Below, piece by piece: positions 21,902 through 63,931 of a stretch of DNA of 64,000 nucleotides. The DNA lies in NCBI RefSeq assembly GCF_027568395.1, contig NZ_JANKZL010000002.1, forward strand, positions 100,301-164,300. Reading direction: 5' to 3'. The position numbers were made by a program, and so were the translations under genes. The notes beneath the pieces were generated by a model. That model had not been told where the DNA came from and did not search any database. It worked only from the letters and a program-made list of their open reading frames with translations. Position 1 is the first letter of the stretch, and each line of letters begins with the position of its first letter. The stretch is from Aminobacter sp. HY435 (GTDB lineage: Bacteria > Pseudomonadota > Alphaproteobacteria > Rhizobiales > Rhizobiaceae).

Positions 21902-22174
21902 TTAGACAGGCGTTTGAGCGGCCCTAAGCTCCACCTGGGCATTTGCCAACAGGCGCATAACCTCGTTCAACTCGGCCACGGTAGGTTTGGCCCGCGCACC
22001 CATAGTAGCACGCTCGCCTAGGATGCGATGCGCCGCCGCCACGTTGCCGAGCGCTTCACTGAAGGATACCGCAATCATGAGCATACCGATTAGCTCTAGG
22101 AAGGTAAAGAGAAAATCCCAGGCCCATTCCTTGGCACGCATGAGGCGCGACACGTTGCGGGGCTCAGCGCTCAT
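21902..22174 (-). CDS. phage small membrane protein (early block)
   Basis: A 90-residue protein with one strong transmembrane segment (WDFLFTFLELIGMLMIAVSF, about 19-38), a basic N-terminus and a soluble helical tail rich in Ala, Glu and Arg. GGAGG lies about 9 nt before the ATG at 22174, which overlaps the end of the upstream gene. It is the phage gene nearest the host junction. A holin-like role is possible, but its place in the presumed early block argues for a host-takeover or superinfection function instead. Function unknown. Confidence 0.6.
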   Translation of the reverse strand: MSAEPRNVSRLMRAKEWAWDFLFTFLELIGMLMIAVSFSEALGNVAAAHRILGERATMGARAKPTVAELNEVMRLLANAQVELRAAQTPV

Positions 22175-22472
22175 TGGTGGCGGCCTCCGCCCGCTTGTCG
22201 GCAATCGTGAAGTGGTGCGAGTAGACCCCAGCGCGAACCCAGACATAGAAGTCGCCGCCATCCGCCATATGCCAGTCGCCGGCCCAACCCAGGCGCTCCG
22301 CCAAGGCCTTTGCGGCGGCCTCATGGTTGCCTACGCTGTCTAACAGATGATCCCAGTTAAGCGTTAGCGTGCGCTGTTCACCTGGACGGCCACTGTCCAT
22401 CACGCTGGCCTTAACGCGACTGCTACGTGTGTTCGTATAGCCTAGATAGGCGGTCTTGATTGCAACGGGCAT
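22164..22472 (-). CDS. phage hypothetical protein (early block)
   Basis: A 102-residue soluble protein starting MPVAIKTAYLGYTNTRSSRV, with GAGGAG 10 nt upstream of the ATG at 22472. It has a central helix (NHEAAAKALAERLGW) and a beta segment (GDFYVWVRAGVYSHHF). No catalytic motif is seen. It overlaps the next gene by 11 nt. Small proteins of this kind are common in podovirus early regions, but no function is assigned. Confidence 0.6.
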   Translation of the reverse strand: MPVAIKTAYLGYTNTRSSRVKASVMDSGRPGEQRTLTLNWDHLLDSVGNHEAAAKALAERLGWAGDWHMADGGDFYVWVRAGVYSHHFTIADKRAEAATNER

Positions 22473-22587
22473 GGCTTGAAGTCTCCTCAACATGCTGCCC
22501 CGCTTGATTGCCAGGCAGTGGCGCACAGTGGCCATGTAGAGGGCCGCGCTGGGCCCTCCTCAAAGCGACTGAGGCGGTGTTGTTGGG

Positions 22588-22950
22588 TTAGGCGTGGATT
22601 AGGCCATCATCGCCTATGTAGAGGTCCACGTTGCCGAAGCGCTTGGCGGCCTTGGTGAGCTTTGCGCCTTGCTTGTCAGGCCAATCGCCGTCCCAGAAAC
22701 CAGCGCCATGGCCGCACCGCGTGAGCCAAAAATCGTGGCCCGCTTGTGCGAAGTCCTCACAGTCGGCCAGCGTGTCCTCTGTGGCTGCATAGAAGGCGTC
22801 ACAATCGGCCCGCATCTTGGTGAGCGTATCAGGCGCGATGTCGCTGGCGTCGTGGTTTTCGTCCAGCGGCCTGGCGTCGTCGCCTGTTGAGGACCATAGG
22901 GCGGCCCCCACGTAGGCATCGAAGAATTCTTCAGGGGCGGCCATGGTCAT
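22588..22950 (-). CDS. phage hypothetical protein (early block)
   Basis: A 120-residue acidic protein, rich in Asp, Ala and aromatic residues, with ATMRADCDAF-like helices, FAQAGHDFWLTRCGHGAGFW and DWPDKQGAKLTKAAKRFGNV. Conserved aromatic and Gly/His residues suggest a compact fold met in many phages, but I know no function. GGGGAGGG precedes the ATG. The start overlaps the stop of the upstream gene by 4 nt. Strong negative charge would fit a DNA-mimic inhibitor, which is speculation. Confidence 0.6.
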   Translation of the reverse strand: MTMAAPEEFFDAYVGAALWSSTGDDARPLDENHDASDIAPDTLTKMRADCDAFYAATEDTLADCEDFAQAGHDFWLTRCGHGAGFWDGDWPDKQGAKLTKAAKRFGNVDLYIGDDGLIHA

Positions 22951-23282
22951 GCCCTCCCCATGATGTCGGCACGGAGGGAGTGCGGAACCAGATTAAGGCT
23001 GGCCGCGACTGTGTAGGCTTGAACCTTTGGGCCCGTGTCCCTTACCAGGGCGTCCGCAACGCTGTCGTCTGTGCCCCTGTTGAGTAGGGCGATGGCGTCC
23101 ATTGCGGCCCTGTGTGCGGCCCTAGCGCCTGCCGCGCCTGGGCTGTTTGCATGGTCGCGAGCGTAGACCCTGTGCGTTTCAGCAAGGTTGGCCAGCGCGT
23201 CGGCAAATAGCGACGGATGACACGCAAGAGACCGCAAGATAACGTCGCGGGCTGTGCATGTCGTGAAGTCGATAGGATACAT
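22947..23282 (-). CDS. phage hypothetical protein (early block)
   Basis: A 111-residue, Ala-rich helical protein, starting MYPIDFTTCTARDVILRSLA behind a strong GAGGAGG ribosome site. Most of it reads as amphipathic helices (FADALANLAETHRVYARDHA, AHRAAMDAIALLNRG). A longer open frame extends upstream but overlaps the next gene, so the ATG at 23282 is preferred. Function unknown. Confidence 0.6.
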   Translation of the reverse strand: MYPIDFTTCTARDVILRSLACHPSLFADALANLAETHRVYARDHANSPGAAGARAAHRAAMDAIALLNRGTDDSVADALVRDTGPKVQAYTVAASLNLVPHSLRADIMGRA

Positions 23283-23295: not shown

Positions 23296-23532
23296 TCAAT
23301 AGCCAAGCCACTGGCGGACATCACGCCCAGCCACATGGGCAACCGCAAAGCCGTCAATCGGGTCTTGCTCAAAATACACAGGGAACACAGTGGCCTCCTC
23401 AAAGTACCTGTCATCACTATGGTCGCCGCCTGTTGCCGCCATGCAGGGCATAAGGCCAACCAAGCCTTCCGGCGTGTCGTACACCTGGAAGCCATTGGCC
23501 ACGATGAAAGCCTTAGCGCGTTCTGCAAGCAT
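23296..23532 (-). CDS. phage hypothetical protein, first gene of early block
   Basis: A 78-residue soluble protein (MLAERAKAFIVANGFQVYDT) with an acidic middle (TGGDHSDDRYFEEATVF). The ATG at 23532 has an AAGG ribosome site and lies about 65 nt downstream of a sigma70-like promoter at 23597-23627, so it should be the first gene transcribed by host polymerase after infection. T7 places gene 0.3 (anti-restriction) in the equivalent slot; there is no sequence likeness to it, and function is unknown. Confidence 0.55.
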   Translation of the reverse strand: MLAERAKAFIVANGFQVYDTPEGLVGLMPCMAATGGDHSDDRYFEEATVFPVYFEQDPIDGFAVAHVAGRDVRQWLGY

Positions 23533-23596
23533 GTCCTTAGTCCCTCTCTATCTGTGTTGAACCTTGTGGCCAACCACATGCCGAACCACAAGCCCA

Positions 23597-23627
23597 ACTG
23601 TAAGACTGAGTGCATTGCGGTTGTCAA
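23597..23627 (-). promoter_or_regulatory. sigma70-like early promoter
   Basis: On the minus strand a perfect TTGACA (23622-23627) is followed after 18 nt by TTACAG or after 19 nt by TACAGT (4 of 6 to TATAAT). It fires leftward into the five small genes. It is the best host-type promoter seen in the phage DNA, and its place suggests early transcription by host RNA polymerase. Confidence 0.5.
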
Positions 23628-23780
23628 GTGGGCGGCATGAAGAAAAGCATGCGGGTGGCACAAGGGCCGGTAGACCCCATGCGCTCAAAGTGACCTAGTT
23701 GCTAACCATGGATGAGATCATAAGGGCGACCACATGGCCAACCTAATGGGCAACACTCCATGTTGGCGACCAGGTAGCGG

Positions 23781-23807
23781 CCCAATGTCCTCCGGTAAGG
23801 ACATGGG
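23781..23807. repeat. hairpin inside the noncoding region
   Basis: CCCAATGTCC pairs with GGACATGGG around an 8-nt loop, with one bulged base. It is part of the nested set of palindromes downstream of terminase. Confidence 0.5.
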
Positions 23808-23931
23808 AGCGGTGCGATATCAAGCACTTAGGCACTAGGTTGGCCCCATGGCGGCCCAGTGCCGGCGTCCAGGTGGCGTAGTGCGGGCCTTTGGTGCGGC
23901 AGGAGGGGCACGGGGGGAATGCTCGCCGCAG

Positions 23932-23958
23932 CCCACACGAGAGTACGTCTCACGTGGG
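23932..23958. repeat. hairpin with symmetric internal loop
   Basis: CCCAC-ac-GAGA-gtacg-TCTC-ac-GTGGG: 5-bp and 4-bp stems separated by a symmetric AC/AC internal loop and a 5-nt apex. The symmetric design suggests a protein- or terminase-recognised element rather than a terminator, since no T-tract follows. Confidence 0.5.
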
Positions 23959-24165
23959 TGACCCCTAGTTTCATTGGGTGGGCATCAAGGGTCTAAGTGA
24001 AGTGGGGCCGGTATCCCCTCCCTCCCCACTGTCTCCTTATGGGTAGGCAGTAAGTAGGTCACTTTGAGCACAAGAGCAAAGCGAAGAGAGACGCTGCCTC
24101 CACACTGCAAGCATAGTGGGCACCCAAGGGAGGGCATAAAGTAGGGGCATGAAGTTTGGCATCAA

Positions 24166-24237
24166 GGGAGCCCTCCAAGGGATGATGGGGAGAGCAGGGG
24201 TGGTCTATATCTCTCTATAGAGGCACGGAGGGCTCCC
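24166..24237. repeat. 72-nt long stem-loop with inner TCTATA/TATAGA palindrome
   Basis: GGGAGCCCTCC (24166-24176) is a perfect inverted match to GGAGGGCTCCC (24227-24237). The loop holds a second palindrome, TCTATA (24204-24209) with TATAGA (24216-24221). It lies 75 nt after the terminase stop on the transcribed strand. It may be a late terminator, a processing signal or a phage-polymerase promoter (minus strand GCCTCTATAGAGAGA resembles the T7 core CACTATAGGGAGA). Confidence 0.55.
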
Positions 24238-24311
24238 CTGGCTATAGTCCGTCCTATTGGCTTCTGAGCAAAAGCGCATAGATGCCGCTATGGACACCTA
24301 CGCGCTCTCTT

Positions 24312-26291
24312 TCATCTGTTGGTGGGCCGAGTGGATGCAGGCCGACCATCAGGCCTTTTGGAGCCCCCACGGCCGACCGCTTCTTCCGTCTCGTGAAGCA
24401 GCCGCTCAAGCTCATCCTCGTAGCGGTCCTCACGGGCCCGTACAGCCATCCCCAGTGGGTCAACACCAAGCCGGGGCGCAAAGATACCGCAGGCACCCGA
24501 GAGGCTCTCCAAGCGGTCATCATGGCCCAGACAGTCACGCTCTCGCGTAAGGTGGGTGTACTGGTAGCCCCACGCATAGCGGTGGCGGCTGTCCTCGCCC
24601 TCGATCTTCTGGAGGGACGCATGGTCCCACTCGATGACCGCCCGGGAGACAACAAGCCGGTGCTGCTGGGTGATCGGCTCAAGCACACTGAGGATGCGCT
24701 TCTCCTTCTCCACCCTGCCGGACTTCACCTCTTCGATGACGGTGCCGCCGTGGTCATCCGCTCGGGCACCCTTGTTCGCCTTCTCCCACTCCTTGAAGAG
24801 AACAGGCTTCAGGAGGGCCACAAGCATGCCGTCACCGTAGTTGCTCTCCACGTAGAGAGTGGTGACGCGGAACCTTACGCAGGCCTTGGCGATAGCCGTG
24901 AGCGTCTCTATGCCGTAGCCATCGGTGTTGGCCCAGAGGTGGAGCCAGTAGAGGCGGCCGTAGAGTTCCGCCACGATGCTCAGGGAGGTTTCATCCGCCC
25001 CGCGCCCCGAGCCGTCCACGTAGCCGATGACCTCGGTGTACTTCTCGTAGACCGCCCTCTCCACTGGCACAGGGCCATAGTAGAAGTCGCCATCGTGGCC
25101 CATCACCGGGAGGTCGCGCTGGAGGTTCGTGGACCCCCATATGACCTCATCAGGGCCCATGCGGTCGTCCAGGTCCATGACGGTGAGGTCTTTGAGGCGG
25201 AGCGGGAACTTGTCCATGAAGGAGCCCGAAAGGTCCAACATGAACTGGAGCCGGAACTCCGAGTTGCCCATTGCGGCCCTGCGGCCCTCAAGGTCCTCGT
25301 CGGTAAAGCGGAAGGGCATCGTGGAGTGGCCCACAATGCTCGGCCCCTGCTTGCGCAGCTCAGCCGTGATGTACGGTGCCAGCCACTTCCCGTAGGCCTT
25401 AATCTCATCCTCGGACGGGAACAGGGCGGGCCAGATGCGGGCATCGTAGACAGGCTTGCCGTGGACATCCTTGAGGCGGAGCAGCTTGAGATACAGGCTG
25501 TCCACGTCGTGCGGGGTGCCAAGGTACTTGATGACGCCACCGGGCGTGAGGACGGACTCAAACTCCTTGACGGCCTCTTCGATCTTCTCCCGCATGACCA
25601 CAGTCAGGGAGTTCGTCTGGGTCTCCACGTCATCAGGGATGATGCAGGAACCACGGAAGCCGACGAGCTGGCCACCAATACCGAAGGCCGTGAAGGAGGC
25701 CGACTGGCCGGGGATGCAGTTGCCCACATCCCACATCTGGCTGGACTGTCGGTAGTCCGTCTTGGGCCGCATGTGTGCCAGCAAGGGCATCGTCATGACT
25801 AGCCCGAGGCACCAGTTGGAGGTAGCCACAGCACGCTTCAGCGAGCCCGAGACCACCATCACCTTCTCGTCTGGGTCACAGTACAGACGCCACAGGGCAT
25901 AGGCCCCGGTGATCCACGACTTGGAGAAGCCACGGAAGGCCATGATGATGGCGCGGCTGGGCCCATGCTGGAGCCAGTACGCCATGTCGAGCTGGATGGG
26001 GTTCGGGTCATTCCCGAGGAGGTGCCGCCAGATGAGCGTAAGGAAGACCCGGAAGTCTGCCTTGATGCGGGCCTCCAGGCTCACCGCTGGGGTGTGCGCG
26101 GTGGAGCTTAGGGCAACCTGCTTTATAGGCTGCGTGTCTGGCTCTGGGAGGGGTACAGGAAGGTGGGTAACGACATCCGCCGATGACGGAGCCTTGGCGG
26201 CCTTACGGTCCTCCTTGAGGGCCCTGCGAGCCGCCGCGCGTGGGTCTAGGGGCTCGCCTCCGACTAGGAGCGGGTCAACGAGTTTAACCAC
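24312..26291 (-). CDS. terminase large subunit (T7 gp19-like)
   Basis: ATP-driven DNA packaging motor with nuclease. The 659-residue product has the Walker-type FRGFSKSWITGAYALW, a Walker B-like SCIIPDDVETQTNS, the coupling KYLGTPHDVDSLYLKLL, and the RNase H nuclease part with VDGSGRGADETS and YVESNYGDGM, then GHDDRLESLS. These match T7 gp19 in order. The start GTG at 26291 overlaps the upstream gene's end (CGTGGTTAA); T7 gp19 is 586 residues, so this form is longer at both ends. It is the last structural-module gene. Confidence 0.95.
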   Translation of the reverse strand: MVKLVDPLLVGGEPLDPRAAARRALKEDRKAAKAPSSADVVTHLPVPLPEPDTQPIKQVALSSTAHTPAVSLEARIKADFRVFLTLIWRHLLGNDPNPIQLDMAYWLQHGPSRAIIMAFRGFSKSWITGAYALWRLYCDPDEKVMVVSGSLKRAVATSNWCLGLVMTMPLLAHMRPKTDYRQSSQMWDVGNCIPGQSASFTAFGIGGQLVGFRGSCIIPDDVETQTNSLTVVMREKIEEAVKEFESVLTPGGVIKYLGTPHDVDSLYLKLLRLKDVHGKPVYDARIWPALFPSEDEIKAYGKWLAPYITAELRKQGPSIVGHSTMPFRFTDEDLEGRRAAMGNSEFRLQFMLDLSGSFMDKFPLRLKDLTVMDLDDRMGPDEVIWGSTNLQRDLPVMGHDGDFYYGPVPVERAVYEKYTEVIGYVDGSGRGADETSLSIVAELYGRLYWLHLWANTDGYGIETLTAIAKACVRFRVTTLYVESNYGDGMLVALLKPVLFKEWEKANKGARADDHGGTVIEEVKSGRVEKEKRILSVLEPITQQHRLVVSRAVIEWDHASLQKIEGEDSRHRYAWGYQYTHLTRERDCLGHDDRLESLSGACGIFAPRLGVDPLGMAVRAREDRYEDELERLLHETEEAVGRGGSKRPDGRPASTRPTNR

Positions 26292-26529
26292 GCTTGTCGT
26301 CGTGCTCCTTGGCCTCGCGGAGATACGCCTCGCCCGACTTGCCGAAGCACCCATCCGGCCACTGGAAGTTGGACATGCGGATACGGGTGCGCCGCTCCGT
26401 GGGGCCCTCCATCTTGTCCGCGATGCGCTTCAGGCTGATGGCGATGGACACAAGCGCGGCTTGGTTCTGGTCGAACTCCTCGACCGCCTCCGACTCAAGC
26501 AGGTGGCCAACGTTACGCATGCTGCTCAT
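26284..26529 (-). CDS. phage hypothetical protein, 81 aa
   Basis: A small soluble protein starting MSSMRNVGHLLESEAVEEFD, with a helical N-terminal half (NQAALVSIAISLKRIADKM) followed by a Trp/Gly/Lys tail. Its start overlaps the stop of the upstream 59-aa gene as ATGA, and its end overlaps the terminase start, so it is embedded in the packaging operon. T7 has gp18.5/18.7 spanins at this place; this protein is not a spanin and its role is unknown. Confidence 0.6.
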   Translation of the reverse strand: MSSMRNVGHLLESEAVEEFDQNQAALVSIAISLKRIADKMEGPTERRTRIRMSNFQWPDGCFGKSGEAYLREAKEHDDKRG

Positions 26530-28197: not shown

Positions 28198-28737
28198 CTA
28201 ACTGTTCGGCGGCCAGCCGGCGTTGATGTCGATAGCCGCAAGGGCCGTCTTGTCGAGGGCCGAGGCGATGGCGCTGGCCAGAACGTCGAAGCGGTCAAAG
28301 CAGGCATCCACATGGCCAAGCATCGCGTCAGAGATTGCAATGATGGTCGTGGCGTCTACAGCGGTGCGGGTTCCATCGGCCGCCACCCACTTGGTCGTAA
28401 AGGCTGGGTCTGCGTCCGCCTTGATGCGGGCCCCGGTGACCATCAGCTTGGAGCGGTCATCGGTGTAGATCGGGAAGCCACCGACCACGATACCGCCCGT
28501 TTCGACCGCCCAACGCTTGGCAGCAAGCGCGACAAGCTTGGCCGCGCGGAGGTCCTCAAGGCTCGTCGGGGGTGGAGTGTAGACCCCACCAACTACCGTG
28601 CCCCCCGCTTCCCACTCGGGTTGCGCTATGGCAAAGGGTACTTCCGGCCTGTAACCTATCTCTTCCCCGAACTCCGAGAGTTCCTCCAGATAGAGAATGG
28701 TCCCCTGGTCATCCAGCTTGGCAAAGTACACGGTCAT
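28198..28737 (-). CDS. tail-fibre accessory protein, DUF4376-like
   Basis: A 179-residue protein directly behind the tail fibre gene. The N-terminus (TVYFAKLDDQGTILYLEEL) and VVGGVYTPPP resemble fibre-assembly proteins. The C-terminal part, LEDLRAAKLVALAAKRWAVE to DRFDVLASAIASAL, matches the DUF4376 pattern found next to phage and prophage fibres. It probably helps fold or cap the fibre. The start lies 1 nt after the fibre stop. Confidence 0.65.
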   Translation of the reverse strand: MTVYFAKLDDQGTILYLEELSEFGEEIGYRPEVPFAIAQPEWEAGGTVVGGVYTPPPTSLEDLRAAKLVALAAKRWAVETGGIVVGGFPIYTDDRSKLMVTGARIKADADPAFTTKWVAADGTRTAVDATTIIAISDAMLGHVDACFDRFDVLASAIASALDKTALAAIDINAGWPPNS

Positions 28738-28738
28738 G

Positions 28739-30526
28739 CTACTGCCTCTTGCGCCCGTAAAGATTAATGTCAGCGGTAATGTTCCCCGCTGATGCAGCTA
28801 ATCTGATGTTGTTTACCGCGCTCGCTGTCACGATGTAGCCGTTGGCAGCAAGGTTGCAGACGAACGACCCTGAGAACCAGCCAACACTTTCGTCAAACTG
28901 GAACATGGTGCCGTTGCACACGAACCGAATGTTTCCGCGAACGGCCCCAGTGGAAGTATTCTCGGAGTCGTTCGTCAGGGCGAAGGCGACCGCATTTGCC
29001 GCCGATTGGGAGCTAAGCGCATTGCTGCCGGAACTGTTCGCCGCAACACCTGCGTAGTTGTAACCGGTCGCTATGTAGGACGAGCCATTGTTCAAACTGA
29101 CAGTCATATGCAACGCGCTGCCAGTTGTTGCTGGATGGGCGCGTGAGACCACCATATCAAACACTTCGTAGCCATCTGCAATGAACGCCGCCAACGAGAT
29201 GCTGAGACTAGCAGCGTTAGTCGCGCTGAAGGTTCCGAGGAACTTCATGTCCGGCTGCGCCCACCCGGGGGCGGTGACGGCATCGTTCTGGGTCAGAACA
29301 GCTCCAGCCGTACCCTTAGGGAGACGTGCGGGAATCTTCGTGCCCGAGTAGTACGGGATATCACCCTGGACGAACGGGAGTGCCCCAAGGCCGCTCGCGG
29401 TGATTTCGACCCACGACTGCCAGGTAGACCCCGTGTACCAGCGATGCCGCCTGTATACGCGGGGACCATTGGCCTCGAAAGCAAACTGGATGTTCGCAAG
29501 GTTTGTGGGGCCTGCAATTGCCTGCTGGATCACCATTGCATAGAAACTGCCCGCAGCCGGTGCGTTAGCTGAGCCGTCTACGGCAAAATACCAACCGCTA
29601 TCTAAGAGGGTATCCCAATCATATGTGCCGCCTGCCTGCTGCTTGCCAAGGCGCTGGTTAAAGCCCAACTCAAGGTTGGTCTTCATCTGAGCAAGCGTAA
29701 TGTTCTTGCCCAGCCACGCAGCGGCGCTGTCCGCGACCACGAACTTGTCGGCATCTACAAGCGTGGCCTTGCTGCCGAAAGCGTTGATCGCAGCCCCGAT
29801 GTTCGTGGCTATATAGCTTGCCGCCTTGGCCGCATAATGCAGCGCCGAGCGGAGAGCCGGAAAGCCCGTGATCGGTTGATCTTCAGCCTTGGTGGCAAAC
29901 TCTTGGGCAAGCGCAGCCGACGCCGTTGCGCTGTTGGCCTGCGTGGTCGCAATGCCGCCCTGCGTCGTGGCGATCCCGGCTTGGGTTGTCGCTGTGGTCG
30001 CCCCTGTGGTCGCAATGCCAGCCTGAGCGGTTGCTGTGGCCGCCGCCGCCAAGGCCGCATCCATGTATCCCTCAAGGGTGTTGACGTTGGGGCCGAACGT
30101 AACGTTACCCTCCGCGTCCCACACGAGGGTGTCCCCGGCTGCGCCGACCTCAATGGTGCCCCCAGCTTGGAAGTTCTTGGTGAACCAGCCACGGGCCAAT
30201 ATGTCGGCCGCCTGGTCTGTCGCCTCCTGCGCCTTGTAGAGCGGCTGGAGGACGCCAACGTTGAGGTCTGCACTGTCCAGGTTGCCGGGCTGGAAGTTGG
30301 TGAGTGGCCCGTCTGGCGTTTGCCGCCTGCGCTCCACCACAGTGCCCACACTCGGGGCCCCCGCTACAAGCTGGACTTCGCCGTCCGACAGCCATGTGTA
30401 TTGATTGGCCGCAAGGAGGACACCGGCCACGCTGACCTTGGTGTGCGTCTTGTCGAGATACGGAAACGGCACCGAGAAGTTTGCAGTGCTTCCCGATGCC
30501 GTGCTCCGTGCGATACTGGAGACCAA
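28739..30526 (-). CDS. tail fibre (T7 gp17-like)
   Basis: The 595-residue receptor-binding protein. The N-terminal 150 residues (ANFSVPFPYLDKTHTKVSV to RRRQTPDGPLTNFQPGNLD) match the gp17 virion-anchoring domain. A collagen-like coiled region with ATTQAGIATTQGG repeats follows (about 165-205), then a variable beta-rich C-terminus with GYNYAGVAANSSGSNALSSQ. The start is a TTG at 30526 with AAGGAG 4 nt upstream. The C-terminal part is expected to set host range and shares no recognisable receptor motif. Confidence 0.9.
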   Translation of the reverse strand: MVSSIARSTASGSTANFSVPFPYLDKTHTKVSVAGVLLAANQYTWLSDGEVQLVAGAPSVGTVVERRRQTPDGPLTNFQPGNLDSADLNVGVLQPLYKAQEATDQAADILARGWFTKNFQAGGTIEVGAAGDTLVWDAEGNVTFGPNVNTLEGYMDAALAAAATATAQAGIATTGATTATTQAGIATTQGGIATTQANSATASAALAQEFATKAEDQPITGFPALRSALHYAAKAASYIATNIGAAINAFGSKATLVDADKFVVADSAAAWLGKNITLAQMKTNLELGFNQRLGKQQAGGTYDWDTLLDSGWYFAVDGSANAPAAGSFYAMVIQQAIAGPTNLANIQFAFEANGPRVYRRHRWYTGSTWQSWVEITASGLGALPFVQGDIPYYSGTKIPARLPKGTAGAVLTQNDAVTAPGWAQPDMKFLGTFSATNAASLSISLAAFIADGYEVFDMVVSRAHPATTGSALHMTVSLNNGSSYIATGYNYAGVAANSSGSNALSSQSAANAVAFALTNDSENTSTGAVRGNIRFVCNGTMFQFDESVGWFSGSFVCNLAANGYIVTASAVNNIRLAASAGNITADINLYGRKRQ

Positions 30527-30558: not shown

Positions 30559-33500
30559 CTACAGGCTGTTAAGGTCCACGCCGAAGCTGGTGCCCAGTTT
30601 CTTCATTGGGGTGTCTGCCCCCGCCGCCTGCCTGTTGGCCTTCCACTGGGCTCTCGCCTTGAGGTCGGCCGCACGGAACGCATCCCGTATCACAGGGTCA
30701 CGCTTCAGGAGCTTCATCGCGCGGGTGCGGTAGGAGTTGACGATGGGGTGGAGCAGCCAAAGCTTGGTGCCCTTTACGTCCATCGCCCCATCGGGAGCCA
30801 ACTGGTAAGTCTCGGACGCCATGCGCTTGGCAATGAGCGTCTTGAGGGCTGGCCCCTTGGGAGGATGACCCGCCCACTTCTGGTATTGCTCGTAGGCGTT
30901 GGCCCCGTCTGACAGCGTGATTTCCCTGAGGTCCACACCGTCATGGTTGGGCTGGGGGGCGCTGATGGCTGTGCCCGTCTCCACAAGGAGGCGCTGCATT
31001 TCCCGGTCCACAATCTGGTCCTCATCGCTGGACCACAGACCTTTGCGGGCCCGTATCGGATCACCCCAAGCATCGTGCCTTGCGGGCACTGTCTCGGAGA
31101 GCCCCGGCACGGTGGCCAAGAGCTTGTCCGTAATGTCCCGAGCTTCCCGGAGATACGGGTCGGGGTTGGACTGGCGGAGCAAGGAAGAGTACGGGATGAA
31201 GCTTGCAGCCGTGCCGCCCGCGTAGCCCGTCGCCTTGCTCTCGGGGTCCATCATCGCATCCATCATCTGGCTCACCCCGAGCAGGTAGGTCTTGGAGGTG
31301 AACTGCTTGGACATGGCGATGAGGAGGCCCCCGACAGCCGCCGAGAACTCTGGCGTTTCCTCGCCGTTGAGTGCCTCGTAGGCGTCCATAAGGTCCGCGA
31401 TGATGCCCATGGGGACTGCCACGGGATCGTATCGACCCCATGGGAGGTAAGTCTTGGAGCCGTCCTCGTTGACCGACACCACGGAATACTCACGCCACCC
31501 CGTTGCGAGGAGCGCTTGCTTGGCCTTGTAGTCACGCGGACCGCCCCCCGTGATGGTGCCCTGAGATACCATGAAGGCAGCGGACCCCATGAAGAGCCCA
31601 CCCATCATCATCTGGCCGGTGGCCTGGGCCTTGGCTTCAGCCCCCATAGCCCCGCGCAGCATGTCCCGATATTCGGTCTGCGCAACGTTGAGGATGGGGG
31701 TCATCTTCCAGCCGTACCGGATGACGTTCGTAGGGGTCTTCACGAAGGGGAGCATGAGGCGAAGGCCCGGGTGGGCGTTGACCCCTGTCTGTATCCATTT
31801 GCCGAGGGTGTTGGGGTTAAGCTCCTGCTGGAAGGTCGCGATGTGCGCCTCCCGCAGTGCAACCGCGTCGGTGCCCCTGCCCATGTCATCAAAGGCAACA
31901 TCAAGCTTGGACTTTACGGCCGCCCGCACATAGTCCTTGAGGGCCTTGCCCGAGAGGCCTGCCTCAGCGGCCTCATCCATAGCCTGGACGTGAGCGTTGG
32001 CCATGACCTTCGAGCGGTAGACCACCTGCTTGACCATTTCGTCGGTCGTGCCGAGCACCCGTGTCGGGAGCCCAACGGGCAGCATGGCCACCTTCAAGGC
32101 ATTGTTGAGGATGTTCCCCGGATTGGTCCACGGCTTCCACCCGCCAGTCGCCGCCCCCAAGGCCTGATTGCCCGCGTAAAGCTCCGTCCGGTGGGGCGCA
32201 ATCACGCTGTCGTTCTGGAGGAAGGCTTGGCGGGCGAACTTGAAGCCGTCCACGAAGGCGGCCCCGAGGTAGGTGTATTGTTTGGTGCTCTCACGCATGA
32301 TGCGTTGGGCAACCACATCGCCCCGCATAGCGCCGCCTGCCGAGCCCAGCATCCTCTCAAGGGGGCGAGCGCCCACCATGTAGGAGTTGGTCACGAGGTT
32401 GACCACCTGCGTAGTCCACCCGGAGACGAGGCCGTTGATGCGGAGGAACATGGCGAAGTCCACGCTCTTCGACCACCACCCCGGATTGACCACCTTGGCC
32501 ATGTTCTTGGGGTTGCCCCCGGTTGCCAATAGGACATCCGTAAGCTGGTCGGCGTTCATGGAGTTGAGCCCCTCGACGGCCTTGGGGTCCACCTTGAACT
32601 CCATCCGCATGCGCCTCATCGACCGACCAGAAGCCGCCGTCATGCTCCTTGAAGCCCCATAGACAGAGGCAGCAAGGGACATACGCTTCTTGAGTTCCAT
32701 CTGGGCGGCCTCGCGACTGCCGAACGCCGAATAGTCGCCCAGCTTGATCCGAGCGGCCAAGGCATAGGTGTCCTGAAACATGCGATTGGAGACCAGATAA
32801 CCGGCCTCCATCTTGGCGACCATGGAGCTGGCCTCCTTGCCCGCCTGCTGGACCATCCCGATGACCTGGGCGGGGTCGGCATTGTAGAGCTGGGCCATCT
32901 GGTGGGCGACCTTGGAGAGCTTCTCATCGGTCACCACAGCGCCGCCCTTGAGCCTATCCAGGCGCTCCTCTGCGACATCCACGACGCGGGCCATGAAGTC
33001 GTCCACGTCGCTGGGCATGTTGAGCTTGGCGTAGGGGACCCCCTCACCTCTCCCGAAGACGTGCCCCCCCTCAATCGCCTCATACCAACCGCCGTGCTGG
33101 CTGATGGCATCGGCGTCGGCTTCGAGACCCTTGAGGACCTCCTCGGTGTTTTCGTCGGAGAGCCTGATGCGCGGCTGGGCGGGACCCGTTACGACTGCAT
33201 CGGCGGCTTTGGCGTCCGTGGTGGAGGCGACAATCTGCGGCCCACCCACGGCCTCCGCCATGGCGGCATCGTGCTCAACTCGGGATGGGCCATCGGGGAT
33301 GCCGCCCGCTGACTCAGGGGAGCCCGTAGAGAGGCTTTGTGCCTCCGCTAGTGCCACCGACTCATCCACCACCATTGGCCCTGTAGGAGCCTCTGTGCCC
33401 GGCTGTGGGGCAAGCTCTTCGGCATCCTCTAGGGCCTGTCGCTCCATGGCCGCAGCCTTCTCCGCCTCAAACTGGGTAATCTCCTGCCCGGCCTTCTCGG

Positions 33501-34269
33501 CATCCCCCATGCGTAGCCACTTCCACGCCTTGGTGGAGGACACGAAGGTGCCCAGAATGGCGGCATCAAGCCCAATGCTCTCAAGGGCGGCCTTAATGCG
33601 GCCCTCTGCGGCGCTGTCACTGGGGTCGGCTGCAAGCCAGGCATTGACCGGGTTGGCCATGGGCGTGTTCTGGATGAGATTGCTGAGGCGCTCCTCGTGG
33701 GGATCGAAGGCGATAGCCCCAGCCAGCGCAGCCTTAGCCGTACCGGCCGCCACGGGGAAAGCCTCACGGGCAGCGGTGAGCCCCTTGCCAAACCAAGGCA
33801 GGGACTGGGCGACCTTGGTGGCCTTGCCTAAACCCACCATCGCCAAGGCAAACTGACCGACACCCGAGGAGAAGCCGCTAAGCATGCTGCTCTCGTCAAG
33901 CTGCTTATCGCGGGCCTCAATGGCGGACCTGAAGTTGGACTTCTCGCCCTCTACGGGTTCACCGAAGAGGAAGTCCTTCGTCTCGAAGACGGACTTGAGG
34001 GCTCCCGTCATGCCCGCCTCCATGACAGCCGGGGTGCCCGCAGGTGCTAGGGAGCCTTCCTGCTGGGCGAAGGGGTCCTTGCGGGTTGCCTCCGAGAGGG
34101 CCCGCACCCCAGCCTGTACGCCCGGGTTGTCCGCGAAGGACGTGCTCACGGGCTCCTGCTGGGGTGCCTGCTCCTGCTGGACCGGCGCTTGGGCTGGGGC
34201 TTGCTGCTGGCTCTGGCGGATACGCTCATCCGCACGCTTCATCAGAGCCTCAAACTCTTGCTGGTCCAT
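30559..34269 (-). CDS. internal virion protein D (T7 gp16-like ejection protein)
   Basis: 1236 residues, comparable to T7 gp16 (1318), expected in the capsid core and ejected into the cell to form the trans-envelope channel. The N-terminus is Gln/Pro/Ala-rich and disordered; the rest is mostly helical, with AYALAARIKLGDY, DMGRGTDAVALREAHIATF and VNAHPGLRLMLPFVKTPTNV, the last block conserved in gp16 homologues. Unlike T7 gp16, no lytic transglycosylase motif is visible near its N-terminus; that activity seems to have moved to the neighbouring gp15-like protein. Confidence 0.85.
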   Translation of the reverse strand: MDQQEFEALMKRADERIRQSQQQAPAQAPVQQEQAPQQEPVSTSFADNPGVQAGVRALSEATRKDPFAQQEGSLAPAGTPAVMEAGMTGALKSVFETKDFLFGEPVEGEKSNFRSAIEARDKQLDESSMLSGFSSGVGQFALAMVGLGKATKVAQSLPWFGKGLTAAREAFPVAAGTAKAALAGAIAFDPHEERLSNLIQNTPMANPVNAWLAADPSDSAAEGRIKAALESIGLDAAILGTFVSSTKAWKWLRMGDAEKAGQEITQFEAEKAAAMERQALEDAEELAPQPGTEAPTGPMVVDESVALAEAQSLSTGSPESAGGIPDGPSRVEHDAAMAEAVGGPQIVASTTDAKAADAVVTGPAQPRIRLSDENTEEVLKGLEADADAISQHGGWYEAIEGGHVFGRGEGVPYAKLNMPSDVDDFMARVVDVAEERLDRLKGGAVVTDEKLSKVAHQMAQLYNADPAQVIGMVQQAGKEASSMVAKMEAGYLVSNRMFQDTYALAARIKLGDYSAFGSREAAQMELKKRMSLAASVYGASRSMTAASGRSMRRMRMEFKVDPKAVEGLNSMNADQLTDVLLATGGNPKNMAKVVNPGWWSKSVDFAMFLRINGLVSGWTTQVVNLVTNSYMVGARPLERMLGSAGGAMRGDVVAQRIMRESTKQYTYLGAAFVDGFKFARQAFLQNDSVIAPHRTELYAGNQALGAATGGWKPWTNPGNILNNALKVAMLPVGLPTRVLGTTDEMVKQVVYRSKVMANAHVQAMDEAAEAGLSGKALKDYVRAAVKSKLDVAFDDMGRGTDAVALREAHIATFQQELNPNTLGKWIQTGVNAHPGLRLMLPFVKTPTNVIRYGWKMTPILNVAQTEYRDMLRGAMGAEAKAQATGQMMMGGLFMGSAAFMVSQGTITGGGPRDYKAKQALLATGWREYSVVSVNEDGSKTYLPWGRYDPVAVPMGIIADLMDAYEALNGEETPEFSAAVGGLLIAMSKQFTSKTYLLGVSQMMDAMMDPESKATGYAGGTAASFIPYSSLLRQSNPDPYLREARDITDKLLATVPGLSETVPARHDAWGDPIRARKGLWSSDEDQIVDREMQRLLVETGTAISAPQPNHDGVDLREITLSDGANAYEQYQKWAGHPPKGPALKTLIAKRMASETYQLAPDGAMDVKGTKLWLLHPIVNSYRTRAMKLLKRDPVIRDAFRAADLKARAQWKANRQAAGADTPMKKLGTSFGVDLNSL

Positions 34270-49702: not shown

Positions 49703-49831
49703 CTAGTCGCCGCGTATTTCCCGAATGAGTGCCTTCCAGAACAGGAGAGCACCAAGCCCGAGTACGGCTGCGCATCCCACGAAGATGATGGCCAATAACA
49801 CATACTGCCCATACACAACGGCTAGTGGCAT
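49703..49831 (-). CDS. 42-aa single-TM protein
   Basis: ATG at 49831 overlaps the DNA polymerase 3' end by 10 nt. The product, MPLAVVYGQYVLLAIIFVGC onward, has one hydrophobic helix and a short basic tail (KALIREIRGD). Positive-inside residues place the C-terminus in the cytoplasm. Very short, so often missed; function unknown. Confidence 0.5.
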   Translation of the reverse strand: MPLAVVYGQYVLLAIIFVGCAAVLGLGALLFWKALIREIRGD

Positions 49832-55942: not shown

Positions 55943-56592
55943 CCGAGCCACTCCCGATCATGTCCAACGTTGCTGTCGAAGATGCAGAACTCCGTGGACA
56001 CTGAGGGGTTGATGTCGAAGTGGTCCTTATGGAGCCTCTCCGCCAACTGCATGGCTGCCCATTGGAAATCCTCAAGCACGCCCTCGGTCACCCTGAGGGT
56101 AACGTAATGGCGCGTGCCATCTTCGCGGGAGGAGACCCCTGCCCCATGGACGTTCGCCACGCGGACCAGCTCGGCGTAACGGTCGGTGGACAGCTTGCCG
56201 AGGACCTTGACGTGGGCTTCGAAGTAGCGGCCCGCGAGGATAGCCAACCCGTTCCGCTTAGTGGGAGCCTCGGGGTGCCACGGGGTCGCTTCGATCTTCA
56301 TCCGGGTGACCGTGAAGCCGCTGACCGCAAACACGAAAGCAGTGTGGTGGAGCAATGCCCCCGGCGAGCCATGCAGGCTAGCGGTGGAAGAGGTCAGCCA
56401 CTCGGTGACCAGCACACCGCCCAAAGTCCGGTTCTTGAGGAACACAGGCTTGGCACCGAGTTCCCGGCACAGCTCGGAGAATGCCTCTTCGCTACCCGGC
56501 TTTGGCTCCACGGTAACATGGAGCTGCACGAGGTGGGCCTTGTCGGGCCCCGCCCCCGCAACCTCGCAGTTGTCGCAGTCAGCGCAAGTCAC
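55939..56592 (-). CDS. phage hypothetical protein with internal duplication
   Basis: 217 residues starting at GTG 56592. It seems to be built of two similar alpha/beta halves, HLVQLHVTVEPKPGSEEAFS with ELGAKPVFLKNRTLGG and FEAHVKVLGKLSTDRYAELV with VHGAGVSSREDGTRHYV, each followed by a beta strand, suggesting tandem ferredoxin-like folds. An N-terminal CADCDNC motif might bind a metal. Function unknown. Confidence 0.55.
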   Translation of the reverse strand: MTCADCDNCEVAGAGPDKAHLVQLHVTVEPKPGSEEAFSELCRELGAKPVFLKNRTLGGVLVTEWLTSSTASLHGSPGALLHHTAFVFAVSGFTVTRMKIEATPWHPEAPTKRNGLAILAGRYFEAHVKVLGKLSTDRYAELVRVANVHGAGVSSREDGTRHYVTLRVTEGVLEDFQWAAMQLAERLHKDHFDINPSVSTEFCIFDSNVGHDREWLG

Positions 56593-56807
56593 GGGGCGAG
56601 GTCGTACTTCTTGAACTCACGGCCGAAGCCATCGGTTTCGCGCCGGTCCACAATGTTGTGGCCCATGCGGCGAAGCTCAGCGATGCGGCTGGAGAGCGAC
56701 CCCACGCCGAGCGCGGTGATGGCCACAAGGTTGGTCAGAGTGCGGCCGTGCTTCAGGTAGTCCAGCACGATTTCCTGCTGCTTGGTCAGTTTGGGTTCGT
56801 CACCCAT
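56589..56807 (-). CDS. small helix-turn-helix protein
   Basis: 72 residues starting MGDEPKLTKQQEIVLDYLKH. The pattern GRTLTNLVAITALGVGSLSS followed by RIAELRRMGHNIV fits a winged HTH DNA-binding fold. GGAGAAGG lies upstream. Joined to the next gene by GTGA. Possibly a phage transcription regulator, a class that T7 itself lacks. Confidence 0.65.
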   Translation of the reverse strand: MGDEPKLTKQQEIVLDYLKHGRTLTNLVAITALGVGSLSSRIAELRRMGHNIVDRRETDGFGREFKKYDLAP

Positions 56808-57232
56808 GCTCTTGCCTTCTCCATGTTGATCGCTGGGCACTGGCGTGAGTGCCGGGGGTACGCTTCCGAGTGGCCAACCAGAGGCAGCGGCCCATAGAAG
56901 TCTGCGAGGTAGGCCATAAGCCCCCTCAAGGTCTCGCCCTGCTCGGGCGTGAAGTTGCCTTCGGGTTCCCCCGCCTCATCGACGCCACCACCAAGACAGA
57001 CCGCGATGCTGTCCGCGTTGCGGTGGCGCATATGGGCACCCCATGCGTTGTGCGGTCGGCACTCCAACAAGCGCCCATCACGGAGGATGAGGTAGTGGTA
57101 GCCGACAGCCAACAAGCCCTGGGCCCTGCCCTTGACGGCGAGGAAGTGCTTGAGGTTGGTCTGGGAGGGGGGCGTCTGGCTGTCGTGAAGGACAACCTTG
57201 GTGGTGGCTTCGCGGGGCCTAAAGGTCAGCAC
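56786..57232 (-). CDS. N-acetylmuramoyl-L-alanine amidase (T7 lysozyme gp3.5-like)
   Basis: 148 residues (T7 gp3.5 151). VVLHDSQTPPSQTNLKHFLA has the first zinc His, GYHYLILRDGRLLECRPHNA the conserved Tyr, and LVGHSEAYPRHSRQCPAINM the second His and the Cys ligand. In T7 this enzyme also binds and inhibits RNA polymerase. Here it is next to the spanins but its context differs from T7 because an M15 peptidase is also nearby. Confidence 0.9.
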   Translation of the reverse strand: MLTFRPREATTKVVLHDSQTPPSQTNLKHFLAVKGRAQGLLAVGYHYLILRDGRLLECRPHNAWGAHMRHRNADSIAVCLGGGVDEAGEPEGNFTPEQGETLRGLMAYLADFYGPLPLVGHSEAYPRHSRQCPAINMEKARAWVTNPN

Positions 57233-58832: not shown

Positions 58833-59000
58833 TTACTCCTTGACAGGGCGGTGGGTCCGCTTGTCGATGGGCGGGAAGACCTCCTCCACACGAGGGGTCT
58901 CCAGCGGGATGACGGTGGGGTTGGCGTAGTCGCTGATGCCGTGCTCGTCTCGGGGCCACAGCAAAGTGGCGAAGCGCTCAACCCTTATGGGCGTAGCCAT
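58833..59000 (-). CDS. phage hypothetical protein, 55 aa
   Basis: Starts MATPIRVERFATLLWPRDEH at 59000, behind a strong AAGGAGGGG ribosome site, and overlaps endonuclease I's end by 23 nt. It ends THRPVKE*, and its last codons form the AAGGAG in front of the endopeptidase. Small, basic and acidic mix; unknown. Confidence 0.55.
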   Translation of the reverse strand: MATPIRVERFATLLWPRDEHGISDYANPTVIPLETPRVEEVFPPIDKRTHRPVKE

Positions 59001-59478
59001 AGGGCCCCTCCTTGATGAGGTCCCTTGGGTCCTGCTCGGGGCCCTGCTCGTGGAACCAGCTCTCAGGGATGAGCTTGTCTGCAAACTGGTAGCCGTATCG
59101 GATGCACCAATCGGCCAGCGTGGTCTTGGAGCCGGGGTTGATGGGGGCCTTGGACCGCGTGAAGACGAAGCGGATGTCCAGCCCGGGGAACTGCGCCTTG
59201 ACGAACAGGTGCTTGGCCCGGTCGGTGCTGTCGAAGATGCCTTTGACTTCCACGAGGATGCCATTGGGCAACAGGAAGTCGGGCGTGTAGAAGTGCCGTT
59301 TCTCAGGCACCATGTAGGGGAGCTTGAAGGTCTCGTAGACCACAGGCATGGAGTGGGCGGCGATCTGCTCCCCCACCCTCACCTCATCACCCGACCTGAA
59401 GCCGTGCTTGAAGCCTGCCTTCTTGCCTGTCGTCCCCTGCTTGGCCTTGCGGACCCAATCGGGGATCACGCGGCCCAT
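58978..59478 (-). CDS. endonuclease I, Holliday-junction resolvase (T7 gp3-like)
   Basis: 166 residues (T7 gp3 149). TPDFLLPNGILVEVKGIFDS carries the catalytic Asp, Glu and Lys, LVHLFVKAQFPGLDIRFVFT-like text follows, and YQFADKLIPESW is the conserved end motif. It resolves branched phage DNA and degrades host DNA. Start overlaps the preceding stop (TGATG). Confidence 0.9.
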   Translation of the reverse strand: MGRVIPDWVRKAKQGTTGKKAGFKHGFRSGDEVRVGEQIAAHSMPVVYETFKLPYMVPEKRHFYTPDFLLPNGILVEVKGIFDSTDRAKHLFVKAQFPGLDIRFVFTRSKAPINPGSKTTLADWCIRYGYQFADKLIPESWFHEQGPEQDPRDLIKEGPYGYAHKG

Positions 59479-59782: not shown

Positions 59783-60415
59783 CTAGTAGTCCGCGCCGGG
59801 GTTGGAGGGGGTCTCGTCTGCGGACCCGAAGCCGTCGCCCTGCTGGCCATCGTCCTGGTAACCCTCGACAGCACCGAAGCCGCCACCGTTACCTTCAGAC
59901 AGCTTGCGGACCTGGACGCGGGAGAAGTCGAGGCGCACGCCGATCTGCTTGAGGGACTTCATCGGGATGGGCCGCATGCAGTAGTTGATGCGGATTTCCG
60001 AGCCGCCCCGGACCAGCTTGTGCATTTCCTTGCCGGCCGCATCGTAGAGGCCGATAACGACATCCTTGACCGTGCCGTCCTTGAGGCGGATGCGGGCGTT
60101 CTGCTTGAAGTCGAACACGATGGCACCCGTGGGGTTGCCGTCGCTGTCCTCCTCCACCTCGTAGGGGTAGTAGACGGCGAACTTCTTGCGCTCGCCGGGC
60201 GTGAGGCTCTTGCCGTCGCCGTTCTCGAAGTAGTCGTCAAATGCCGCCTGTGCGGCAACGTCCACCTTCTCCTTCTGGCGCTGGGCCGCTTCACCTTCGA
60301 GGCGGAGGCCGGTCTTGAAGAGGGGGTTCTCGGCATTGAACTTGTTGTCGGGCCTGTTGAGGTGCGGGTAGACCGCGATGCCGAAGGCGCTGTCGTAGTA
60401 CGTGTGTTTGGCCAA
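59783..60415 (-). CDS. single-stranded DNA-binding protein (T7 gp2.5-like)
   Basis: 210 residues (T7 gp2.5 is 232). It has an OB-fold-like middle (NARIRLKDGTVKDVVIGLYD) and an acidic C-terminal tail (GFGSADETPSNPGADY), typical for contact with the polymerase and helicase. Start is a TTG at 60415 with AGGAGA 5 nt upstream. Place in the middle region before endonuclease I matches T7. Confidence 0.75.
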   Translation of the reverse strand: MAKHTYYDSAFGIAVYPHLNRPDNKFNAENPLFKTGLRLEGEAAQRQKEKVDVAAQAAFDDYFENGDGKSLTPGERKKFAVYYPYEVEEDSDGNPTGAIVFDFKQNARIRLKDGTVKDVVIGLYDAAGKEMHKLVRGGSEIRINYCMRPIPMKSLKQIGVRLDFSRVQVRKLSEGNGGGFGAVEGYQDDGQQGDGFGSADETPSNPGADY

Positions 60416-61788: not shown

Positions 61789-61886
61789 GGTGTCTTCCCT
61801 GATGATGTTGCCTTGGGGTCTGGGGTGTGGCTTGTCGTGGGGGCTGGCGGTTACATGGCACCCTCCTCTGCTCCAGAAACACAAAA

Positions 61887-61906
61887 GCCCGCCGATGAGG
61901 GCGAGC
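61887..61906 (-). terminator. early terminator after RNA polymerase
   Basis: On the minus strand GCTCGCC-CTCATC-GGCGGGC is followed by TTTTGTGTTTCT. A 7-bp GC-rich stem with one G.T pair and a good T-tract, 34 nt downstream of the RNA polymerase stop. It corresponds to the T7 early terminator that stops host RNA polymerase. Confidence 0.7.
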
Positions 61907-61939
61907 TTCTGTTCTCAAAGGTCCGTCTCATTGGAGCGG

Positions 61940-63931
61940 CTAGGCGAAGAAGTAGTCACTCTCCAGCACCAGCCTTAGGTCCAGCGACCCCTTTGCCAGC
62001 GGTTCGGGCAGCATCCCGTCCGCCTTCTCGCTGGCCGCAAGCGGGTCCAAACCTTCCTCAACCACCAGCCAATCCACCAGCACCCTTTGGCAGTCAGCCC
62101 TAAAGTTCGCCAGCACGTCCACCTCATGGGTCGCCACGAAGGCCTCACGCAGGAACACCGAGAGCGCCCCCATGTTGGCCGCATGCGTGCCGTAGGCATC
62201 ATGGACTGACACGAACTCCTCAATGCCCGCCTCACGGCAACGCTTGATGCACTCCACCAAGCACGACGCATCAAGCGAGTGGATGAAGTTGGGCGCTATG
62301 CCCTGTGTCTGTTCCCTGGTGGAGAGCTGGGCGGTCTTCTCATTCCGCGTCACCTCCACTCGTTCACCGTCCAGCATGATCTTGTGGACTATGGAGCGGT
62401 CCAGACCATAGAAGTGGCGCACCACGAAGCCCGAAGGCACCGTCCAGTAAATCGGCTGGTTGGCCACAGCGACCGCCTTTGAGCAGTCCTGAAGCCACTT
62501 CATGACCTTCATGCCACTCTTGACCACCTCATTGACGGTGTCCCAGAGGTGGGCGGCGAGGAAGACCACACGCTTGGTGCGGAGGTCCCCTAGGAGGTCG
62601 TCAAGCTTCCTTGGCTTCTCCTCGCCGTCGATGAGCGTAACGCCGTTGGCCTCAAACTCCGCGACCTGGGCGGCCGAGGGGAACTCATCGTCGGTCGGTT
62701 CGGGGGCCGGTGCGTATTCGTCCAGCCACTTCCTCGTGTAGGTGAAGAAGCTGTCCTTGGTGCCGCCATAAGGAAGCACCATGACTTGCCGCTTGGTGAG
62801 GGTGCGGGGGAGATTGCGCTCGCACAGCTCCAGCCAATAGGTGGCCTTCTCGCCCTCTGCGCCGCCCGCCCGTTCGATGCGCTCAAGGGTGTGCTGGAGG
62901 CCGAGCACGGCTTCCTGCGCAATCCTGTCAGTCTCCGTCTCCTCAGGCACAGCGGGGGCACCTGTCGCCACCACCTTGTAGATGTCCTGCGGCTTGTCGG
63001 CGGGCACGAGGTTGACATAGCGCCCGGCCACCTCGTCCCTGAGGATGGCGCTAAGGTGCTGGATACCATTGCAGGTGCCGTCCACCATGACCGGGAGGTG
63101 GGAGATATAGCCGTAGCCCTCACCAAGGAACTCGACCCACTCGAAGATGGCGGCGAGTGCCTGGAAGGGCTTGTCGGCCTTCTGCCACTCGGTGTTGGTG
63201 TAGGGGTCCGCAGCGATACGCCGCCACTGCTCCTCGTGCGCCTCCACCCACTCAATGCGGTCACCCATGGCCACCTTGTCCACGCCGCAAGCGCTCGCCA
63301 GTTGGATGGCCAACCAGCCCGCACCCCCGTTCTCCTCCGTAATCGGCAGGCCTTCCGCAAAGGTCAGTAGACCCCGCGCAAGGTCGGAGCCTTGGGGCTG
63401 CAAGAAGTTGGCTATGGGATAGATGCGCCCCCGGAAGTCCAGCATGTGGGGGAAGTAGATGGACGGGAAGCGGGCGTATTCTTGGGCAATGAGGATCGTG
63501 GTGGAGGTGGCCCGCATCTTGGACAGGCGCTTGGCGTTGAAGCGGTACACCGGGGCGGCCTTACGCTTCCACGCAAGGATTTCCTTATCGGTCTGCTCAT
63601 CGCGTGCTGGCTTGGGGAGGCCCTGCTCACGTGCCCTGCGGCTGGCCTCTGCGTGCTCTGCCATCCGGGGTGTACGGGCGGGGAGCTGCTTCTCGTCTAT
63701 CTGGGGGAGGCCCGCAACGCTGGCGTCACCGGCCTTGGCCCATACGGCTACCGCAACGTCAAGGACGCGGGTGTTGACTTGCCATGCCGTCTCCTGAAGG
63801 AGGTGGATGGCGTTGAAGACATTGGGCATGTCGAGAGCATCATACTCATCGGCCGCCCGATCACGCTGGGTCTCCTGACTAGCCCTGAAGCGAACTAGTT
63901 GAGGGGTCCGAACGTAGGGCGTCCAATACCC
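61940..63931 (-). CDS. single-subunit RNA polymerase (T7 gp1-like), 5' end missing
   Basis: About 663 residues remain; the frame runs without a stop past the internal ATG near 63829 to the contig edge. The matching T7 protein begins about 250 residues earlier, so the promoter-reading N-domain is gone. Present are VDGTCNGIQHLSAILRDE (catalytic Asp), TLTKRQVMVLPYGG (the essential Lys and Tyr), VHDAYGTHAANM (second Asp) and ESDYFFA* end, all aligned with T7 RNA polymerase. It would transcribe the middle and late genes. Confidence 0.95.
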   Translation of the reverse strand, partial: GYWTPYVRTPQLVRFRASQETQRDRAADEYDALDMPNVFNAIHLLQETAWQVNTRVLDVAVAVWAKAGDASVAGLPQIDEKQLPARTPRMAEHAEASRRAREQGLPKPARDEQTDKEILAWKRKAAPVYRFNAKRLSKMRATSTTILIAQEYARFPSIYFPHMLDFRGRIYPIANFLQPQGSDLARGLLTFAEGLPITEENGGAGWLAIQLASACGVDKVAMGDRIEWVEAHEEQWRRIAADPYTNTEWQKADKPFQALAAIFEWVEFLGEGYGYISHLPVMVDGTCNGIQHLSAILRDEVAGRYVNLVPADKPQDIYKVVATGAPAVPEETETDRIAQEAVLGLQHTLERIERAGGAEGEKATYWLELCERNLPRTLTKRQVMVLPYGGTKDSFFTYTRKWLDEYAPAPEPTDDEFPSAAQVAEFEANGVTLIDGEEKPRKLDDLLGDLRTKRVVFLAAHLWDTVNEVVKSGMKVMKWLQDCSKAVAVANQPIYWTVPSGFVVRHFYGLDRSIVHKIMLDGERVEVTRNEKTAQLSTREQTQGIAPNFIHSLDASCLVECIKRCREAGIEEFVSVHDAYGTHAANMGALSVFLREAFVATHEVDVLANFRADCQRVLVDWLVVEEGLDPLAASEKADGMLPEPLAKGSLDLRLVLESDYFFA

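Follow-up and report, generated by a model that had tools for sequence, protein, structure and literature searches.

Phage T7 itself only kills, and temperate phages of the T7-like type are said to have been described by Boeckman et al. in 2022. The element dealt with here, a T7-like phage genome that is very probably integrated in the chromosome of Aminobacter sp. HY435 and most of which lies within a 64,000-base stretch of it ("the window", i.e., bases 100301-164300 of contig C21, in a 4.6-Mb genome assembled into 29 contigs), belongs to a kind that is already known, as integrated T7-like phages have been published, rhizobia included (at tRNA-Leu sites). According to the published accounts, prophage elements related to T7 are widespread, Pseudomonas putida KT2440 being one strain with a T7-like prophage (PMC10134795), T7-like cyanophages integrate without stable lysogeny (PMC8776855), vB_PaeM-G11 has been induced and has a 14-bp repeat (PMC10142737), and Pseudomonas phage LUZ100, for which a MarR switch has been hypothesised, gave no stable lysogens (PMC10134795). 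The preliminary description of the stretch, which had called integrated T7-like phages uncommon, was thus too strongly worded, rhizobial ones being on record as well (PMC8631192).

The rhizobial case is the vTRX32-1 group (vB_RleA_TRX32-1; Autographiviridae, placed together with RHEph01 in Paadamvirus), temperate T7-like phages residing in rhizobial chromosomes with a short core, a 12-bp sequence in a tRNA-Leu gene for which a replacement tRNA is carried (PMC8631192), whereas the Aminobacter element, whose RNA polymerase is 36% identical to that of the group, occupies a non-tRNA site before phaC and has another integrase. Mesorhizobium phage vB_MloP_Lo5R7ANS (Pairvirus) resembles it in being T7-like, with early small genes and an integrase upstream of the RNA polymerase (43% identity for the terminase and 36% for the RNA polymerase), but differs in an annotated transcriptional regulator directly before the integrase, and has no match to either of the two recombinases of the Aminobacter element, Int1 and Int2, at E 1e-5. 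Rhizobium phage Pasto and LUZ100 are likewise temperate-type T7-like phages with an early-region integrase, yet they have a helix-turn-helix (HTH)/MarR regulator near the integrase gene and a phage tRNA-Leu, neither of which is seen here; a regulator of this sort beside the integrase is found in LUZ100, Pasto and Lo5R7ANS and not in all temperate T7-like phages, and the bacterial attachment site (attB) of these three, in tRNA-Leu, has no counterpart in the present site. What is new is precisely this site, 30 bp ahead of phaC and behind a near-invariant noncoding block of 105 bp, together with the large Int1 beside the attachment (att) site, a second recombinase that also occurs in a phage lineage whose members are mostly uncultivated, and the lack of a recognisable MarR-type regulator. 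In the literature searched, no paper brings together a prophage, phaC, an integration site and Mesorhizobium, a result of little weight for accounts worded otherwise.

With a probability of roughly nine in ten, the locus is to be read as a T7-like prophage of ~47.2 kb, intact-looking bar an assembly gap in its RNA polymerase gene, which lies between a lipoprotein gene and phaC and was likely inserted by its own Int1 within the early region. The left third of the window is host DNA (among others, recJ, homoserine dehydrogenase, an aminotransferase and a lipoprotein-like gene), and the homology of this host locus to eight same-genus genomes ends at 21825-21827, where the phage starts, every nameable gene from 21828 onward being a phage gene on the minus strand. 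The border is not marked by composition, as the guanine-cytosine content is 0.631 in the 2 kb before it vs 0.598 after it. In all eight relatives, the lipoprotein gene is followed by a strongly conserved noncoding block and then by phaC (so named by a Pfam-type profile match), which in HY435 sits on another contig, C22 (318,488 bases), beside the missing early phage genes. This is the second junction that had been set as a test of the earlier claim that a circularised phage joined the chromosome inside its early region, and the claim is strengthened by the borders themselves: a 10-bp core, TATGTCAATA, is found on the host/phage border at 21818..21827 of the window (plus strand; from C21:122118) and, in the same orientation, at C22:5150-5159, the whole 4.6-Mb genome having only one further copy, on C29, while the host flanks, joined at a single copy of the core, align ungapped with the empty site in 8/8 same-genus relatives having the locus, five of which differ from the core by one base. 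Both junctions lie inside contigs (C21 comprises 164,300 bases), and the element has a direct-repeat core at both ends as well as an empty site in relatives, the two marks of a site-specific prophage.

The attachment site is intergenic, with 30 bases between the end of the core and the start codon of phaC. A tRNA attachment site was considered and rejected, there being no tRNA in the window or in the empty-site loci (L008-L015); the nearest tRNAs on the C22 stretch (L037), two tRNA-Glu, are more than 3 kb from the core. In the phage attachment site (attP) arrangement, the core is flanked by perfect 10-bp inverted arms, and similar inverted pairs (10-bp arms, loop up to 30) occur once elsewhere in the 42,103 phage bases of C21 and not at all in the 5,078 of C22. 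Left on the C21 side by the insertion is the near-invariant host block upstream of phaC (21723..21827; 105 bp, core included), which is 94-99% identical to the eight relatives vs 52-67% over the 75 bases that precede it and 82-89% over the initial 130 bases of phaC; it has no Rfam match at the gathering score and may represent divergent promoters, or another regulatory element, between the lipoprotein gene and phaC.

The missing phage part occupies C22:1-5149, with phaC coming next, and runs from an N-terminal piece of the RNA polymerase (C22:10-951) through small genes, int2 (C22:1742-2647; a tyrosine recombinase of 301 amino acids) and an early gene at C22:2736-3365 to int1 (C22:3392-5095; a tyrosine recombinase of 567 amino acids, over the PF00589 cut-off), the start of which is 54 (TTG) or 108 bases (ATG) from the core. 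Both integrase genes are therefore found where temperate T7-like phages have theirs, in the early region upstream of the RNA polymerase gene. The polymerase is of the single-subunit T7 type, its two contig pieces covering phrog_414 positions 5-257 (C22, with RPOL_N) and 281-816 (window 61940..63928, minus strand, open to the contig end), so that the assembly lacks little of the gene. Within it, both contigs show homopolymers at the ends that face each other: C21, which ends exactly at the window's last base, closes with a likely read artefact (63929..64000; runs at 63929-63939 and 63947-64000), and C22 (L037) has a C run at 48-72. The phage "end" at 63931 is therefore simply the end of the contig, which falls inside the RNA polymerase gene. 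The ~47.2 kb of the prophage are made up of ~42.1 kb on C21 and ~5.1 kb on C22, plus a gap of unmeasured length; the phage had been called intact-looking, which stands apart from this gap and does not extend to the RNA polymerase gene that the gap splits.

At the opposite end of the prophage, the order given in the preliminary description (RNA polymerase to terminase as in T7, then a noncoding region, five small genes and host DNA) is borne out by PHROGs and Pfam matches. T7-like phages have linear virion DNA with direct terminal repeats; in the integrated copy, the noncoding region (23533..24311; 779 bases with short unrecognised open reading frames only) likely holds the fused genome ends. 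Behind the terminase gene it contains a 24-bp inverted pair (23680-23703 / 24049-24072; 88% complementary, arms separated by 345 bp), which may bracket the packaging end. Relatives support three of the five small minus-strand genes in the role of the phage's left end that had been proposed for them: gene 1 (23296..23532; no Pfam match) has weak homologs in L084 (5e-5), ahead of int1, and in L083 (2e-3), where terL and int1 stand on either side, gene 2 (22947..23282; no Pfam match) has one in L073 (E 5e-21) that immediately precedes the early module, and gene 4 (22164..22535; phrog_3199, 2.1e-10) has one in L071 (E 5e-8), situated between terL and the early module, which places the five-gene block in the early region. 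Gene 3 (22588..22950; phrog_1915, 1.1e-22, like phrog_3199 without an assigned function in PHROGs) and gene 5 (21902..22174; an open reading frame without a Pfam or PHROGs match) matched nothing in the 13 early stretches compared. The sigma70-like promoter that was supposed to precede these genes was not recovered, a consensus scan of window 21300-24400 giving 0 promoter-like sites vs 1.0 expected in shuffles (C22:1-5300: 1 vs 1.2); the TTGACA hexamer at 23627-23622 has, judged by eye, no fitting -10 sequence at the position 17 bases on, other promoter types being possible. A search for phage promoters as repeated 11-13-mers gave nothing readable as promoter-like. Among the nine small early proteins, none of which has a Pfam match, PHROGs matches point to no MarR/HTH regulator either, although profile scans can miss a divergent one, and the only HTH protein met is a single small winged-HTH protein of the HTH_39 family in the middle region (56589..56840, minus strand; PF14090, 2.3e-8).

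Protein-guided scans of IMG/VR and of genome contigs gave 38 loci, of which 17 (L071-L087, including three genome loci) were compared with the element's own proteins and the 21 weakest Int1 matches (L088-L108) were left out. A related RNA polymerase occurs in 10 contigs, accompanied by an int2 relative in eight, by an int1 relative in three and by both in one (G417, with int1 reversed). The closest of the relatives encountered, G415 (IMGVR_UViG_3300046460_000048; 48,432 bp), shows identities of 70% for the terminase, 72% for the capsid and 59% for the RNA polymerase and, like G416, has its int1 homolog at the same place as here, directly before a homolog of the gene at C22:2736-3365, but no int2; its ends share 127 identical bases, which makes a circular genome likely. 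The prophage of Methylobacterium ajmalii IF7SW-B2 (L079, L109-L111) is of the same lineage and likewise integrated, with int2 upstream of the RNA polymerase, but has a 22-bp core, and its att site, which lies in the middle region, is accompanied by a third integrase gene (PF00589, 6.9e-26) that ends 33 bases from one junction. It is nested in a putative terminase gene of another prophage, with 22 shared bases at the junctions (L109 17560-17581, L111 11072-11093); the downstream part of the disrupted gene is a terminase (PF17289, 3.2e-12), and the upstream part, which has no Pfam match, is presumably the other half of the same gene. Att position and integrase thus vary within the lineage, both readable att sites adjoin an integrase other than Int2, and the picture across the lineage is suggestive of an exchange of integrase modules from phage to phage, the att site occupying differing places on the map.

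Across 11 proteins, Int1 shares four invariant motif residues (R389, H484, R487 and Y519) and a nearly invariant one (H510), all of them presumably catalytic; the named sources of its relatives are bacteria (Mesorhizobium, Rhizobiaceae, Stappia and others), except for one eukaryote-collection entry (P0084). Of the 120 Int2 relatives listed, 16 reach 42-48.2 kb in their longest contig, a length that corresponds to these phages. Within the order, a T7-like RNA polymerase match was obtained in 8/396 other genomes, one of which (G102) is weak (E 6.4e-4) and was left out; among the remaining seven, an integrase match lies 38-42 kb downstream of the polymerase in three (G281, G106 and G395) and 1.2 kb upstream in G306, the position in G142, G151 and G167 not being resolved, and, to judge by position, the integrases of the former four probably belong to the same prophages as the polymerases. 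Two side observations concern the arrangement of the recombinases: L071 has both at 11148-12788, the Int1-like gene being inverted and behind int2, and L080 (Labrys) and L082 (an IMG/VR contig) show a phage region in which two Int2-like genes and, oppositely oriented, one Int1-like gene adjoin a homolog of the element's own internal virion protein, the stretch available giving no match to RNA polymerase.

The contig breaks and homopolymer artefacts within the phage might be taken as signs of an assembly chimera, in which a free or contaminating T7-like phage was misjoined to host contigs; two independent junctions on two contigs, however, share one 10-bp core and meet exactly at a site that is contiguous in 8/8 relatives, and a complete integrase gene stands beside one of them, a pattern that a chance misjoin would not reproduce. 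With the second junction and the empty sites ruling out a chimera or a free phage contig, such an origin is scarcely credible. That the element is a defective, grounded remnant and not a functional temperate phage is unlikely, even if the RNA polymerase is spread over two contigs and no repressor has been recognised, since the reading frames for virion structure, replication, packaging and lysis are open and match their families, 47.2 kb fits the 44-48.4 kb of seven relatives and the core is a perfect direct repeat. A real prophage could also have been integrated by Int2, with Int1 as a passenger or in some other role: Int2 has R154, R251, H275 and Y284 invariant in 14 proteins and is the sole integrase found in four (G026, G414, G418 and G419) of the seven lineage contigs of 44-48.4 kb searched whole with PF00589. 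This would nevertheless sit poorly with a core directly beside int1, with an int1 relative as the only integrase of G415 and G416, with an Int2 score of 24.9 bits for PF00589 (cut-off 27.1) and with the att site of M. ajmalii, which has int2 and a third integrase gene, lying beside the third, and we regard it as quite improbable.

Insertion of an intact-looking phage by Int1 within the early region is thus retained, with several points weighing against it. The RNA polymerase gene is split by the assembly gap and may not be intact; the core is short and is absent from the eight stretches of relatives searched (L083, L084, L113, L114, L071-L073 and L075), int1 carriers included; Int2, the start of which is 2.5 kb from the core, could take the place of Int1, and int2 occurs without an int1 relative in 7/10 of the T7-like relatives with RNA polymerase (in the stretch compared), one of the seven, G421, having a further unclassified integrase. 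The break in M. ajmalii, moreover, falls between an HTH gene and the primase, leaving the early region unsplit, so that early-region splitting is no rule of the lineage; a general rule that integration splits this region is contradicted by that prophage. Finally, there is a TTGACA hexamer between the core and int1, which may be a promoter in its own right, possibly serving int1, and this would weaken the argument from separation set out below.

Under integration by Int1, the genome would circularise after entry, and recombination by Int1 between attB, before phaC, and attP, which has int1 on one side and the five left-end genes on the other, would put these five genes at one prophage end and the RNA polymerase gene, with int1 and int2, at the opposite one; the phage map would appear permuted because attP lies within the early region. 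Integration would then take the polymerase gene away from the host promoter, whichever it is, that serves the left end, and would separate phaC from the conserved block upstream of it; on excision, both connections would be re-established. The phage might be kept silent by this parting itself or by an unrecognised repressor. Taken to its full extent, integration would be a lysogeny switch and a host switch at once, the polymerase, ~42 kb from the left-end host promoter, being silenced without a MarR-type repressor, and polyhydroxyalkanoate (PHA) synthesis coming under reversible prophage control through the parting of phaC from the 105-bp control block; this we consider doubtful. No statement of such a switch was met among the titles or abstract openings listed for the literature searched. 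As it is unsettled in general how T7-built phages keep a very active polymerase quiet in the lysogen, an intact-looking lysogen with a split early region and no recognisable MarR regulator by the integrase makes a testable case, and at this site it could be tested cleanly whether PHA storage in a rhizobial relative is altered by a prophage.

The remaining phage genes on C21, all on the minus strand, follow the order of RNA polymerase, DNA metabolism, structure and terminase that is typical of T7-like phages (Autographiviridae). After the polymerase come a gp2.5-like single-stranded DNA-binding protein (59783..60415; phrog_112, 2.8e-16), endonuclease I (58978..59478; PF05367, 6e-51), a lysis amidase (56786..57232; phrog_822, 3.1e-34), the primase-helicase (53313..55106; phrog_239, 9.1e-127), the DNA polymerase (49822..52002; phrog_17, 2.5e-101), a DNA methyltransferase (48962..49699; phrog_757, 9e-37) and an exonuclease (47696..48574; phrog_107, 4.9e-54). 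The structural part comprises the portal or head-tail adaptor (43575..45203; phrog_449, 9.3e-99), scaffold (42604..43560; phrog_1052, 2e-14), major capsid protein (41259..42383; phrog_267, 3.4e-32), tail tubular proteins A (40464..41060; phrog_446, 3.3e-40) and B (38085..40454; phrog_457, 5.3e-155), two small internal virion proteins (37131..38088; phrog_805 and phrog_308), a virion protein with endolysin/peptidase-like domains (34285..37119; phrog_90 and phrog_894), an internal virion protein (30559..34269; phrog_6651, 9.6e-49), the tail fibre (28739..30526; phrog_19294, 6.5e-18) and a tail-fibre associated protein (28198..28737; phrog_10508, 3.1e-26), and is followed by the terminase large subunit (24312..26354; phrog_38, 3.1e-86).

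On the host side, the aminotransferase gene of the left flank (20103..21320, minus strand; PF00155, 8.1e-55) has orthologs with 96-98% identity in 8/9 other same-genus genomes, the ninth, 81% complete, being without one. The lipoprotein-like gene next to it (21369..21758, minus strand), the start of which is probably downstream of 21758, has homologs in Aminobacter and Mesorhizobium, which also provide its top named matches (71-72% for Aminobacter). Further into the host part of the window, a THF-II (folE) riboswitch is found at 13466-13504 on the plus strand, with a score of 59.7 bits, over the gathering score.

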